Assembly: GCA_035948415.1 (NCBI GenBank)
Contig: DASZJD010000084.1
Location: 1-60,115, forward strand
Length of the DNA stretch: 60,115 nt
Origin: Acidimicrobiia bacterium
GTDB taxonomy: Bacteria; Actinomycetota; Acidimicrobiia; IMCC26256; PALSA-555
Reading direction: 5' to 3'
In this document: positions 15,476 through 20,346 of the stretch, piece after piece
How the letters are laid out: each line of letters begins with the position of its first letter
Numbering within the stretch: the stretch's first letter is position 1
Translations under genes and position numbers: made by a program
The notes under the pieces: model-generated
The model's database searches: none
What the model was told of the DNA's origin: nothing
The model's input: the letters and a program-made list of their open reading frames with translations, nothing else

Positions 15476-16579
15476 TCAGAACGGTCGGGTCACCGCGCGC
15501 GTCGGCCCGAAGCTGTGGAGGGCGAGCGCGTGCAGGTTCCCGAGGCCGCCGCAGACCATCACGAGCATGTGGGTCGGGTCCTCCACGAGGTGCACCATCC
15601 CCTCTCGGTCGACCCGACCGTGCTCGTGCGCCTGCTGCTGGTGCGGCGCCGGCCACCAGGTCACCGGCAGGGCCGCGTGGGTCCAGAGCCGCTCCTGTAC
15701 GTCCTCGATCGCCGGGTAGGCGGCGGCGATGAGGTCGGCCCACGGCGGCGCCAGGCAGACCATGATCTCGGCCCCGTGGTACCCCGAGATGAACGCGTTG
15801 GTGCCGGGGAAGGCGAGCGACTTGCCCACGATCTCGAGCAGGTCGACGCCGTTGTCGGCGACGATGTCGGCCACGTCGATCGTGCCGGTGCAGCCGTGCA
15901 CGGTGACCGCGTCGCCGGGCACGCCGCGGCGCGCCGCCAGGGGCGCCCACGGCGATCGCTCCTCCCACTCTCCGACGACGATGCCGGCGACGCGCCCGGG
16001 CGAGCCGAACACGCTCTTCGAGGAGACGCCGACGACCTGACCGCCGATGTTGCGCATGACGAGGCGGGTGGCGCGCCCGATCGCGGGGCCAGGCCCGGCC
16101 TGGCCGCCGAAGCAGCCGGCGTCGTACGGGACGCCGAGGCGGTCCCGGCTCGGCCCGTTCACGAACAGGCCGGGGACCACGCACGACGTCGTGGTGTTGA
16201 GCGCGAAGAGGTTCAGGATCGGGTCGGCCATGGCCTCGATCGACGCGCAGAGCAGCGGCATGGCGTCGGCCGGCATCCCGGCCATCACCGCGTTGATCGC
16301 CACCTTCTCGACCGTCGCCCGCCCGTTGCGGGGCGGCAGGTCGCAGAGGCACTCGTCGGGGAAGCGGCCCGAGCTGGCGACGTGCCCGCGGACCCGCGCC
16401 TCGGTGGGCGGGATGAGGGGGAGGCCGTCGCCCCAGCCGGCGTCGGTGGCCAGCTTCGTGAAGGCGGCCGGGTCGTCGTCCACCTCGAGGCGGGCGCTCG
16501 CCAGCCACTCGATCGTGCAGCCCTCGGGGCCGCAGTCGACGCGCGACGCGATGCGGCTCCCGGTCACCGGTCGCGCCAC
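15476..16579 (-). CDS. Conserved protein of unknown function paired with UGSC selenoprotein
   Basis: A 367-residue soluble protein with no recognised enzyme domain. Conserved-looking blocks are GWGDGLPLIPPTEARV (residues 48-63), LPPRNGRATVEKVAINAVMAG, PGPAIGRATRLVMRNIGG and GEWEERSPWAPLAARRGV. From general knowledge this WxDGLPxxPPT...ATVEKVAINAVMAG pattern belongs to a widespread family of uncharacterised proteins that also appears beside or fused to UGSC-type proteins; this should be verified. GTG at 16579 lies 10 bases after the selenoprotein stop, so the pair is an operon. Several Cys (residues 16, 21, 78, 80) could take part in redox chemistry with the selenocysteine, but that is speculation. 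Confidence 0.75.
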   Translation of the reverse strand: MARPVTGSRIASRVDCGPEGCTIEWLASARLEVDDDPAAFTKLATDAGWGDGLPLIPPTEARVRGHVASSGRFPDECLCDLPPRNGRATVEKVAINAVMAGMPADAMPLLCASIEAMADPILNLFALNTTTSCVVPGLFVNGPSRDRLGVPYDAGCFGGQAGPGPAIGRATRLVMRNIGGQVVGVSSKSVFGSPGRVAGIVVGEWEERSPWAPLAARRGVPGDAVTVHGCTGTIDVADIVADNGVDLLEIVGKSLAFPGTNAFISGYHGAEIMVCLAPPWADLIAAAYPAIEDVQERLWTHAALPVTWWPAPHQQQAHEHGRVDREGMVHLVEDPTHMLVMVCGGLGNLHALALHSFGPTRAVTRPF

Positions 16580-16589
16580 CCGCCCACGC

Positions 16590-17129
16590 TCACCCCGACG
16601 CGCCGATGGTGGCGAGCAGCGCCGGCCAGTGCTCGGCGGCGATGGCCCGCACGTCGGCCTCGCGACGGGTCTCGAGCGGGTACGGCAGCACGTGGACGCG
16701 CAGCCCGCCCCGCCCGGCGTTCGCGGCCATCGTGTGGGCCAGGGACTCGAACTCTGCGGTTACGACGACGACCGCCGTCTTCCCCTCGCGGGCGGCGGCC
16801 ACGGTGTCGTGGACGCTCCACGAGGTGCAGGAGCCTCAGTTGCCCAGCCCGACGATGGCCACGTCGACGTCGGCGGCGAAGTCGTCGAGCTCGCGGAACG
16901 TCCGCTCCCCCGCCTCGCCGATGCGGTTCCCGGCGGTCCAGACCCGAACCGTCGCGCCCGCGGCGTCGAGGTCCTTCCGCCACTCGTCGATGACCCACTC
17001 CCACGACTGCCACGTCTCGTCGGTGCGCAGCCCGACGCGGCGACCCGCCAGCGGCCCCGCGTCGGGACCCGGGTCGGGCGACACCTCGGGTGGCGCGGCC
17101 GTCGGGTCGAGGATGGTGATCTTTGCCAT
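16590..17129 (-). CDS. UGSC-family selenoprotein, in-frame UGA read as selenocysteine
   Basis: Reading through an in-frame TGA at 16836-16838 gives one 179-residue protein, MAKITILDPTAAPPEV... to ...ALLATIGASG. The UGA codes residue 98 in VDVAIVGLGN-U-GSCTSWSVHD, the defining motif of UGSC selenoproteins (Cys homologs read CGSC). Both sides have continuous protein character and a Rossmann-like alpha-beta pattern: a strand before U98, a helix after it, then TAVVVVTAEFE. The ATG at 17129 is preceded by GAGAGGCGAG and a -10-like TACGAT at 17160-17165. A short hairpin follows the UGA. Without recoding the gene would look like two fragments. Family function is unknown; a thiol/selenol redox role is presumed from U-x-x-C. 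Confidence 0.88.
16815..16838 (-). promoter_or_regulatory. Candidate bacterial SECIS hairpin after the UGSC UGA
   Basis: Directly after TGA (one base later) the minus strand can fold GCTCC-TGCACCTCGT-GGAGC: a 5-base stem and a 10-base loop. An alternative pairs GCTC/GAGC and CAC/GTG with a CTG bulge and a CTC loop. Bacterial SECIS elements lie immediately 3' of the UGA inside the coding region, so position fits. Binding by SelB is inferred, not shown. Confidence 0.5.
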
Positions 17130-17315: not shown

Positions 17316-18380
17316 GTGACCGCCGCCGCGCCCCCGCTCGGCGTCGACGAGCTGACGGCGCCGTGGCTGGCCGGCGCGCTCGGCGCCCCCGTCACCGACG
17401 TCGAGGTGCTCGACGCCCACTCGGGCACGACCGGGCGCGTGCGCCTGGCCGTCACCTACGAGGGCGGGGCGACGAACGGGCCGGCGTCGGTGTTCGTGAA
17501 GCTCGCGCCCTTCGACGAGCGCCAGCGGCGCTTCGTCGACGCCGTCGGGCTCGGCGTGGCCGAGGCGACCTTCTACCGGGACGTCGCCGCCTCGACCCCG
17601 GTGCGCGTCCCCCGGGTGTGGCACGCCGCCGTCGACGGGGGCCGCTACGTGATGGTGCTCGAGGACCTGGAGGCGAGCGGGTGCCGCTTCCCCCGTCCCG
17701 ACGACGCCGACGTCGGGGAGCTCGCCGGCCGGATCGTGGACGAGCTGGCGGCCCTCCACGCCCGGTTCTGGGGATCGGAAGCGCTGCGAACGGGCCCGCT
17801 CGCGTTCGTCCGCCAGGGCGCCCGGCTCGCCTTCGGCGGCGGCGGCCCGTTCATCGCCCGCGCCGTGGACCGGTTCGCGGCCGAGATGCCGCCGGTGTTC
17901 ACCCGCCTCGGGGAGCTGTACGTCGCCCGGGCACCCGAGATCGCGTCGCTCTTCGAGGTCGAGCCCCGCACCCTCGCCCACGGCGACCCGCACCTCGGCA
18001 ACCTCTTCGTGGACGGGCACCGGCCGGGGTTCTTCGACTGGGGGATGGTCATGGCCCGGGCCGGCATGTGGGACGTCGCCTACGTGCTGTGCGGGTCGGT
18101 GCCGACCGAGGTCCGCCGCGCCCACGAGCAGGCGTGGATCCGCCGCTACCGGGACGGCCTGGCCGCCGGCGGCGTGGCGCTCGACGCGGCGACGGCGTGG
18201 GATCAGTACCGGCTGTTCGCGGTGTACGCGTGGGCGTCGGCGACGTCGACGGCCGGCGTCGGGGAGCGCTGGCAGAGCGCCGCGGTCGGGCGCGGCGGGA
18301 TGGCCCGGGCCACGGCCGCCGTCGACGACCTCGACGCCGTCGCCTACCTCGAGCGCCGGCTCACGGCGGCGCGCCCATGA
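17316..18380 (+). CDS. Aminoglycoside/choline-kinase-like phosphotransferase
   Basis: A 354-residue protein-kinase-fold phosphotransferase. ASVFVKLAP supplies the ATP-binding lysine. LAHGDPHLGNLFVDG is the Brenner catalytic motif, and GFFDWGMVM carries the metal-binding Asp of the D-W motif. Such proteins phosphorylate small molecules and are often found in lipid or xenobiotic breakdown clusters of actinobacteria, where they are annotated as ecdysteroid-kinase-like; no drug-resistance role is implied. GTG at 17316 is used. It diverges from the selenoprotein operon, and its 3' end overlaps the convergent TIM-barrel gene by 20 bases. Confidence 0.85.
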   Translation: MTAAAPPLGVDELTAPWLAGALGAPVTDVEVLDAHSGTTGRVRLAVTYEGGATNGPASVFVKLAPFDERQRRFVDAVGLGVAEATFYRDVAASTPVRVPRVWHAAVDGGRYVMVLEDLEASGCRFPRPDDADVGELAGRIVDELAALHARFWGSEALRTGPLAFVRQGARLAFGGGGPFIARAVDRFAAEMPPVFTRLGELYVARAPEIASLFEVEPRTLAHGDPHLGNLFVDGHRPGFFDWGMVMARAGMWDVAYVLCGSVPTEVRRAHEQAWIRRYRDGLAAGGVALDAATAWDQYRLFAVYAWASATSTAGVGERWQSAAVGRGGMARATAAVDDLDAVAYLERRLTAARP

Positions 18381-19002
18381 GGGCGCGGACGCGCGCGGTG
18401 AGCGCCTGCGCCCAGCCGAGCGGATCCGCGAGCGGCCAGCCGTACTCGGGCAGGTCGAAGTACTCGACCGACAGCCGGCCCCGGTAGTCGAGGGCGTCGA
18501 GTCGGGCGAGCACGGCGCCGAAGTCCACGACCCCGGTGGGGTCGTCGACGTGCACCTGGGTGGCGCCGGGGCGACCCTGGCGCAGCTGGACGTGGTCGGC
18601 GTGCTCGAGCAGCTCGAGCGGGTCGCCGCCCCAGTCGGCGACGTGGCCGGTGTCCACGAGCAGCCGCAGCCCCGGCACCTCGGCCCGCATGGCCTCGACG
18701 GTCTCGCGGGAGCACACGGTGGCGCCGGCCCAGGGCTCGAGCAGCGCGCCGGGCGCGTCGCGGAACCAGCGCACGGTCCGCTCCCACATGCCGGGCCCGG
18801 CGCGCGGCGCCGGCGTCGAGCACCACCCGGGCTGCGGCTTCGGGAACGCGGTCGGGCAGCCGACGGGCAGCGCCAGCGTCGCGGCGTCGACGTCCACGAC
18901 CACGTCGATGTGCTCGTAGCCGAGGGCGGCGGCCCGGCGGGAGCTCTCCGACGGTGACGCCGGACCGAACACCAGGTCGAGCACGCCGAGCGGGTATCGC
19001 AC
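18361..19002 (-). CDS. Sugar phosphate isomerase/epimerase-like TIM-barrel protein
   Basis: A 213-residue protein of the xylose-isomerase/AP-endonuclease-2 fold. It opens RYPLGVLDLVFG and AALGYEHIDVVVD (first strands), then has LRLLVDTGHVADWGGDP (the metal-binding D-x-x-H region), and VQLRQGRPGATQVHVDDPTG and RGRLSVEYFDLPEYG near the end with further acid and His ligands. It is about 50 residues shorter than typical members. It starts 10 bases after the SDR stop, making it the third gene of the MaoC-SDR operon. The product is probably an isomerase or epimerase, but substrate is unknown. Confidence 0.78.
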   Translation of the reverse strand: MRYPLGVLDLVFGPASPSESSRRAAALGYEHIDVVVDVDAATLALPVGCPTAFPKPQPGWCSTPAPRAGPGMWERTVRWFRDAPGALLEPWAGATVCSRETVEAMRAEVPGLRLLVDTGHVADWGGDPLELLEHADHVQLRQGRPGATQVHVDDPTGVVDFGAVLARLDALDYRGRLSVEYFDLPEYGWPLADPLGWAQALTARVRALMGAPP

Positions 19003-19012
19003 CCGGCGCCCC

Positions 19013-19918
19013 CTACTTCGACTCGCCCTGATACTCCATCCCCGACGGCATGACCATGCCGACGGTCTGGAGGTGCTGGCCCAGCACCTGGTCGAAGTGC
19101 TCGGCGACCAGCTCCGGCGTCCAGCCCCCGTCCCGCCACATGAACGCGATCTGCTTCGGGTGCTGGAACAGCGTGTAGGCGAAGTCGGTGCGCCCGAGGA
19201 TCTGGCCGTTCACGTGCCCGGCCCGCTCCGAGGCGATGAACACCACGAGCGGGGCGTTCAGCGCCGGGTCCTGCTCGGGCGGCGGCGCCGACCCGGACCG
19301 CTCGAACAAGGCCGCGGTCATGCGGGTGGCGCCGGCGGGGGCGACGGCGTTCACGGTAATGCCGTACCGGCCCAGCTCGAGGGCCCAGATGAACGTGAGG
19401 CCCATCAACGCGGCCTTCGCGGCGCCGTAGTTCGTCTGACCGAAGTTGCCGCGCAGCCCGGCCGAGCTCGTGATGTTGATGATCCGCCCGTACCCGGCCT
19501 CGCGCATGGCCGCGGCGGCGTGCCGGGCGCAGTTGAACGAGCCCTTGAGGTGCACCGCGAGGACGGCGTCGAAGTCCTCCTCGGTCATCTTCGTGAGCGT
19601 CCGGTCGCGGACGATCCCGGCGTTGTTGACGAGGATGTCGAGCTGCCCGAAGGCGTCGATTGCGCTGCCGACGATGCGGGCGGCGCCGTCGAAGTCGGTG
19701 ACGGAGTCGTGGCTGGCGATCGCCTGACCGCCGAGGGCGTCGATCTCGGCGCACACCTGGCTCGCCGGGTCCTCGCCCGTCCCGCCGCCGTCGAGGGTCG
19801 CGCCGACGTCGTTGACCACGACCCGGGCGCCGGCGCGGGCCATGGCGAGGGCGAACTCGCGGCCGATGCCGCGACCGGAGCCCGTGACGACGGCGACGCG
19901 CCCGTCCAGGAGCCCCAC
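19013..19918 (-). CDS. SDR dehydrogenase, 3-hydroxyacyl-CoA dehydrogenase (MFE-2) type
   Basis: A 301-residue short-chain dehydrogenase. The cofactor motif is TGSGRGIGREFALAMARAGA, NNAG follows (ILVNNAGIVRDRTL), and the catalytic Ser and YxxxK lie in NITSSAGLRGNFGQTNYGAAK. VVVNDVGATLDG and IVRDRTLTKMTEEDFD are typical of the dehydrogenase part of peroxisomal multifunctional enzyme type 2, which oxidises (3R)-hydroxyacyl-CoA. The C-terminal 90 residues extend beyond a minimal SDR. GTG at 19918 lies 5 bases after the MaoC stop. With that hydratase it would carry out consecutive beta-oxidation steps. Confidence 0.88.
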   Translation of the reverse strand: MGLLDGRVAVVTGSGRGIGREFALAMARAGARVVVNDVGATLDGGGTGEDPASQVCAEIDALGGQAIASHDSVTDFDGAARIVGSAIDAFGQLDILVNNAGIVRDRTLTKMTEEDFDAVLAVHLKGSFNCARHAAAAMREAGYGRIINITSSAGLRGNFGQTNYGAAKAALMGLTFIWALELGRYGITVNAVAPAGATRMTAALFERSGSAPPPEQDPALNAPLVVFIASERAGHVNGQILGRTDFAYTLFQHPKQIAFMWRDGGWTPELVAEHFDQVLGQHLQTVGMVMPSGMEYQGESK

Positions 19919-19923
19919 GGCGC

Positions 19924-20346
19924 TCAGGCCGCCGCGGTGGCGGTGCCGGTCAGCACCTCGACGCCGTCCTGGTTCGTCACCGCGCAGGCCAGGTCGACGA
20001 GGCGCTCGCCGCCCTCCTCCCGCTTCCCGGTGACCGTGGCGGTGCAGGTGAGCGTGTCGCCAGGCCACACCTGCTTCGCGAACCGGACCTGGAACCGTCG
20101 CATCGCGGTCGGGCCGAACCAGTCCTTCACGACCCGAGCCATGAGGCCGGCGGTGAGCATCCCGTGGCCGAACACCGACGGGTTGCCGACCGCGGTGGCC
20201 ACGGTGTCGTCGTGGTGCATGGGGTTGAAGTCACCGGAGGCGCCGGCGTAGCGCACGAAGTTCGTGCGGGTGAGCGAGTCGACGACGAGCGGCGGGGCGG
20301 CGTCGCCGACGTGCAGCGCGTCGAACGTCGGGGCGGCCGCGGGCAC
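19924..20346 (-). CDS. MaoC-like (R)-specific enoyl-CoA hydratase
   Basis: A hotdog-fold hydratase with the hydratase-2 motif in YAGASGDFNPMHHDD (Asp and His) and the following FGHGMLTAGLMAR segment. It would hydrate 2-enoyl-CoA to (3R)-hydroxyacyl-CoA for the adjacent SDR. The GTG at 20346 (140 aa) is preferred: a -10-like TACGCT (20353-20358) lies 6 bases upstream, and operator site B would then occupy the -35 region. A longer start, GTG at 20382 (152 aa), would place the start codon inside the operator. Leads the MaoC-SDR-isomerase operon, divergent from tetR. Confidence 0.88.
   Translation of the reverse strand: MPAAAPTFDALHVGDAAPPLVVDSLTRTNFVRYAGASGDFNPMHHDDTVATAVGNPSVFGHGMLTAGLMARVVKDWFGPTAMRRFQVRFAKQVWPGDTLTCTATVTGKREEGGERLVDLACAVTNQDGVEVLTGTATAAA

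Follow-up and report, generated by a model that had tools for sequence, protein, structure and literature searches.

Does an in-frame TGA in a minus-strand gene of an Acidimicrobiia bacterium encode selenocysteine (Sec), and what might the resulting protein do? The gene lies on contig DASZJD010000084.1 of assembly GCA_035948415.1. We analyzed positions 1 to 60,115 of this contig and refer to this whole stretch of 60,115 nucleotides as the window. An initial annotation had proposed that a TGA divides a member of the UGSC selenoprotein family exactly at an N-U-G-S-C motif. Translating positions 17129 to 16590 with TGA read as U confirmed this placement, with the gene on the minus strand, and gave a protein of 179 residues, with U at residue 98 in the sequence GLGN-U-GSCTSW. 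The TGA at residue 98 is the sole interruption of the frame. The gene uses TGA twice, as the Sec codon at 16836-16838 and as the terminal stop at 16590-16592. Reading the feature on the plus strand does not give the UGSC protein. The codon at 16802, described earlier as an ATG from which gene callers might begin the protein again, is an in-frame GTG. Scanning the window against Rfam found no family. The features discussed here are collected in Table 1.

Table 1. Positions of the UGSC gene, its elements and its neighbors in the window.
Feature	Coordinates	Strand	Description
UGSC selenoprotein gene	16590..17129	-	179 residues, ATG start, TGA stop; TGA-as-U translation, PF24696 match, conservation across the TGA
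In-frame TGA, predicted Sec codon (first residue of U-G-S-C)	16836..16838	-	TGA/TGC exchange in relatives
Candidate bacterial SECIS hairpin	16807..16823	-	TCGTGGA-GCG-TCCACGA, 7 pairs, starts 15 bases after the T of TGA; atypical loop
Partner gene	15476..16579	-	367 residues; GTG start codon 10 bases downstream of the UGSC stop; motif GWGDGLPLIPPT
TIM-barrel (AP_endonuc_2) gene	18361..19002	-	Neighbor conserved with the window's UGSC subfamily, at seven orthologous loci
Short-chain dehydrogenase	19013..20068	-	Neighbor conserved with the window's UGSC subfamily

The family assignment was borne out by Pfam. PF24696 (UGSC) matches residues 5-175 of the translated protein, spanning the TGA (9.7e-33; 114.1 bits against a cut-off of 25), and the protein covers positions 1-170 of the 172 in the profile. 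The NCBIfam equivalog model NF041046 (UGSC_fam) gave the window protein 74.2 bits. Because this score falls under the model's cut-off of 125, we regard the window copy as a divergent member of the family as judged by profile scoring. It shares with other members the full-length Pfam match, the U/C-G-S-C motif and the exchange of Sec and Cys between the window gene and its relatives; it differs in belonging to a subfamily that misses the NCBIfam cut-off. Columns one, two and four of the motif are invariant among 81 sequences. UGSC is a known selenoprotein family to which no function has been assigned, and the window gene is one more member.

The source genome is equipped to insert Sec. As the initial annotation had suggested looking for, it contains selA (6.6e-141), selB (258.9 bits), selD (1.2e-116) and a tRNA-Sec gene (66.7 bits, above the gathering score). 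It carries three UGSC genes including the window copy, each with a single TGA. UGSC was found in 105 of 296 genomes of the class, mostly with one TGA and in some cases with none. The TGA-less relatives that were examined base by base have TGC or TGT at the Sec codon. When genes were aligned at this codon, 107 had Sec and 21 had Cys, and Cys also occupies the UGA position in close relatives from the same subfamily (48-53% identity). Sec and Cys have changed places at least five times on a tree of 128 UGSC proteins. Two findings had been named that would overturn the Sec assignment, namely a lack of homologs aligning Cys to the UGA and a sense codon in a genome of the same species devoid of Sec machinery. 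What we found was Cys (TGC or TGT) exactly at the UGA, and selA, selB, selD and tRNA-Sec together in the source genome. In a set of 20 genomes checked for selA, the gene was absent or weak only among those drawn for Cys-type UGSC, and all the Sec-UGSC genomes carried it.

Each of seven orthologues has one TGA, located at the Sec codon of the window gene. Their amino acid identity to the window protein is 72-85% after the TGA versus 55-70% before it, and their nucleotide differences from the window are concentrated at third codon positions. By these comparisons, the reading frame is under selection beyond the UGA. The gene might instead be a pseudogene or the product of a sequencing error, with the TGA a true stop or a misread TGC or TGG; a single-base error is conceivable in an assembly of 133 contigs. 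We consider this explanation highly improbable, given that the TGA is common to the seven orthologues and to all three UGSC paralogues of the genome, that the genome has selenocysteine machinery, and that conservation of the frame is greater after the TGA than before it. We conclude that the window gene is almost certainly a genuine selenoprotein with predicted Sec at the UGA, because the UGA aligns with the Sec or Cys of relatives, the full Sec machinery is present, and selection extends past the UGA.

A candidate hairpin for Sec insertion lies downstream of the UGA in the family, and it is not the one described at the outset. The window does contain the stem-loop reported to begin one base after the UGA (GCTCC/GGAGC); several orthologues have lost it, and we rejected it as a conserved element for that reason. 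The search for a SECIS downstream of the UGA instead identified a different, strongly conserved family hairpin. In this helix, bases 15-21 after the T of TGA pair with bases 25-31, leaving a loop of three bases, and at least 5 of the 7 pairs are present in 103 of 107 Sec-type genes. The loop is mostly GTN in the family and GCG in the window. The window sequence allows all 7 canonical pairs, yet its minimum-energy fold is another structure. The best SECIS evidence is a codon preference: among Sec-type genes, 81 of the 86 AGY serine codons that contribute the loop are AGT, compared with 23% of AGY codons over the UGSC and partner genes together and none of the 5 AGY codons found there in Cys-type genes. 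At the tip of the helix, covariation is clean (GTC with G, GTG with C), with about 4 independent switches on the tree. We downgraded the corresponding Fisher test (2e-10) since the tree shows only these few switches. The contrast between Sec-type and Cys-type genes in helix pairing is not upheld once kinship is corrected for. Comparative sequence analysis thus indicates that the SECIS hairpin is real for the UGSC family and that the window copy is atypical. A distant UGSC clade (L062:7319-7843, L140:3213-3737 and L092:143-667) breaks the common helix and has a possible alternative stem, GCCCGC/GCGGGC, at the SECIS site.

The function of UGSC was approached through its neighbor. The partner protein had no match in Pfam or NCBIfam. 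A homolog of the partner adjoins all three UGSC genes of the source genome, and in 43 of 43 loci from related genomes a partner of about 340 residues is encoded on the UGSC strand. The order of the two genes varies among these loci, but they are nearly always next to each other, and the partner mostly lies within about 120 bases. The association also holds when approached from the other side. When the partner alone was used to search bacterial and archaeal genomes, 80 loci came back, from Proteobacteria, Chloroflexota, Rokubacteria, Actinomycetota and a haloarchaeon; 76 of these contain a UGSC gene, and 3 of the 4 exceptions lie near a contig end. In 23 of 122 close pairs, UGSC and the partner share a single open frame with no break other than a Sec codon, and such fusions occur in several separate lineages. 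The two proteins mirror each other in their divergence, both across all pairs (r=0.85) and among 9 pairs within one genome (r=0.93, p=0.0002). UGSC and its partner are very probably an obligate pair. Because the two-gene unit is conserved and is fused in some lineages, UGSC and the neighbor at 16579..15476 most likely form one two-part enzyme.

Several loci show variations on this arrangement. One UGSC gene is followed by three tandem copies of the partner (L171:5992-9023). At L107:1200-1718, a UGSC-like gene that lacks the U/C-G-S-C motif adjoins an ordinary partner gene, and two ordinary UGSC-partner pairs lie downstream; the motif-less copy is possibly degenerate or repurposed. The haloarchaeon Natrialba has a Cys-type UGSC gene with a partner (L109:5324-6945), and the selA-like match in its genome is only weak.

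A fusion of this kind was reported previously. A Global Ocean Sampling study describes a UGSC/Unknown_1 fusion, in which UGSC is joined to an uncharacterized conserved domain as in the fusions found here (PMC2398784). Unknown_1 may be the partner domain of our fusions. Our literature search found no paper giving UGSC a partner or a function, and the accessible portions of the published family descriptions mention neither the partner nor a kinship to GrdB. What is new here is that UGSC belongs to a conserved two-part system, fused in some cases, in which its counterpart has no description in the libraries we searched, and that its Sec domain is probably related to that of GrdB/PrdB.

We compared predicted structures of both proteins with known folds. 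The UGSC model (pLDDT 96.6) consists of five strands and five helices in strict alternation with no strand hairpin, and Sec98 follows strand 3 (residues 90-96) and precedes the helix spanning residues 99-114. Its structure matches are flavodoxin-like and other Rossmann-type proteins. In this model, the Sec-bearing half has a flavodoxin-like fold rather than a thioredoxin-like one. The partner was also modeled well (pLDDT 92, pTM 0.90), and structure searches with it returned nothing reliable: the best Foldseek match had an E-value of 0.006 (fumarase) and the best Z score was 4.6 (chorismate mutase). Searching PDB sequences with UGSC, the UGSC profile and the partner profile found nothing useful.

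The fold bears on a proposal that UGSC is a general redox or stress thiol oxidoreductase, similar to thioredoxin or peroxiredoxin, with a neighbor that is merely co-transcribed. The motif is of the U-x-x-C type, and PMC2398784 places the family among thiol oxidoreductases with a guessed thioredoxin-like fold. A thioredoxin-like order (beta-alpha-beta-alpha-beta-beta-alpha, with a strand hairpin) was not seen in the UGSC model, which alternates strands and helices in flavodoxin-like order. Tight pairing, fusions, mirrored divergence and the number of UGSC matches per genome (up to 8 among the 296 genomes of the class) suggest a substrate-specific enzyme instead. A general thiol oxidoreductase is therefore an unlikely identity for UGSC.

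The closest functional parallel came from the selenoprotein subunits GrdB and PrdB of glycine, sarcosine, betaine and D-proline reductases (PF07355). In hhalign comparisons, the UGSC profile matched GrdB-family profiles, built from small sets of 7 and 10 sequences, with 91-92% probability and an E-value of about 1e-6. The alignment places Sec on Sec and includes the helix and the strand that follow. Among comparison families clearly free of UGSC sequence, the best reached 12%, and GrdE-like proteins scored under 1%; a few high-scoring families were set aside because they seem to include UGSC or its antisense frames. GrdB-family genes from UGSC-bearing genomes are themselves interrupted by TGA, in the motif V-D-A-V-I-L-T-S-T-U-G-T-x-T-R. 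UGSC resembles GrdB and PrdB in having Sec at the end of a strand, in the succession of U-G-x-x-T, a helix and E-x-x-G-I-P-T-V, and in a two-subunit organization. UGSC differs in that it lacks the N-terminal domains of GrdB and has no direct match to PF07355, which was not among the matches of the window protein up to an E-value of 1; PF07355 also had no match in the source genome. Structure searches could not show kinship to GrdB because GrdB has no usable match in the PDB. From the profile evidence, we think it likely that UGSC is kin to the Sec domain of GrdB/PrdB.

The resemblance does not extend to the second subunit. We considered whether the partner is a relative of GrdE/PrdA (PF09338) or of the N-terminal part of GrdB, and rejected both on profile comparison (0.2% against the PF09338 set and under 1%, respectively). 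Because the partner is unrelated to either, the analogy to GrdB is limited to the Sec domain. UGSC is not classed as a GrdB; we propose that it would work like the GrdB Sec domain. In the course of this comparison, we also observed short GrdB-like selenoproteins with a U-P-x-C motif (L180-L184, L187-L191 and L194), some of which have a long C-terminal extension. A PF09338 partner was not found in five genomes with such short GrdB-like selenoproteins (G296, G297, G303, G308 and G309).

The genomic setting of UGSC points to catabolism. The neighbors that recur beside orthologues of the window copy are a short-chain dehydrogenase, a TIM-barrel gene and a nitroreductase. Elsewhere, UGSC lies near catabolic genes and TctC receptors, the latter making up 27 of 112 immediate neighbors. 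The betaproteobacterial genomes involved contain 121 or more TctC matches each, so TctC neighbors point only to a catabolic setting; we rejected TctC as a clue to the substrate since it is too common in the genomes concerned.

The pair could also carry out non-reductive chemistry, for example as a hydrolase, lyase, isomerase or racemase, with Sec or Cys acting purely as a nucleophile. Cys at the end of a strand in a flavodoxin-like fold is known from enzymes such as Asp/Glu racemase, and the partner has weak structural hints to fumarase and cyclic amide hydrolases (E-values of 0.006-0.2). These hints do not reach a useful threshold. Sec typically serves redox or reductive chemistry, and all of 81 sequences keep the motif's second Cys. 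We regard a purely nucleophilic role as a minority possibility.

Our best reading, to which we assign a probability of about 0.7, is that the window gene encodes a genuine selenoprotein that serves as one subunit of a two-part, GrdB/PrdB-like selenol enzyme, with a chemistry and substrate that we infer. In such an enzyme, Sec would sit where strand 3 ends and the following helix begins in the flavodoxin-like domain, and its selenolate would attack a small substrate bound where this domain meets the partner subunit. The Cys at the third position after Sec would resolve the intermediate to form a selenide-sulfide, to be reduced in turn by thioredoxin or a comparable donor, as in GrdB/PrdB. The most likely net reaction would be the reduction or reductive cleavage of a small organic catabolic substrate, often of the carboxylate type. 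Assigning GrdB-like chemistry to the UGSC-partner pair in this way is an argument by analogy, and we hold it tentatively, at somewhat less than even odds.

More broadly, there is nearly an even chance that UGSC and its partner are the subunits of a new class of Sec enzymes within a wider GrdB/PrdB superfamily. This class would occur in Actinomycetota, Proteobacteria, Chloroflexota and Rokubacteria and, in its Cys form, as far afield as a haloarchaeon, and its many copies per genome would serve different catabolic substrates. A partner of undescribed fold would take the place of the pyruvoyl subunit. The obligate partner, the natural fusions and the kinship to the GrdB Sec domain turn UGSC from an orphan family into a testable two-component enzyme. 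The fused and Cys-type forms would be convenient for expression, where they avoid subunit assembly and selenocysteine insertion.
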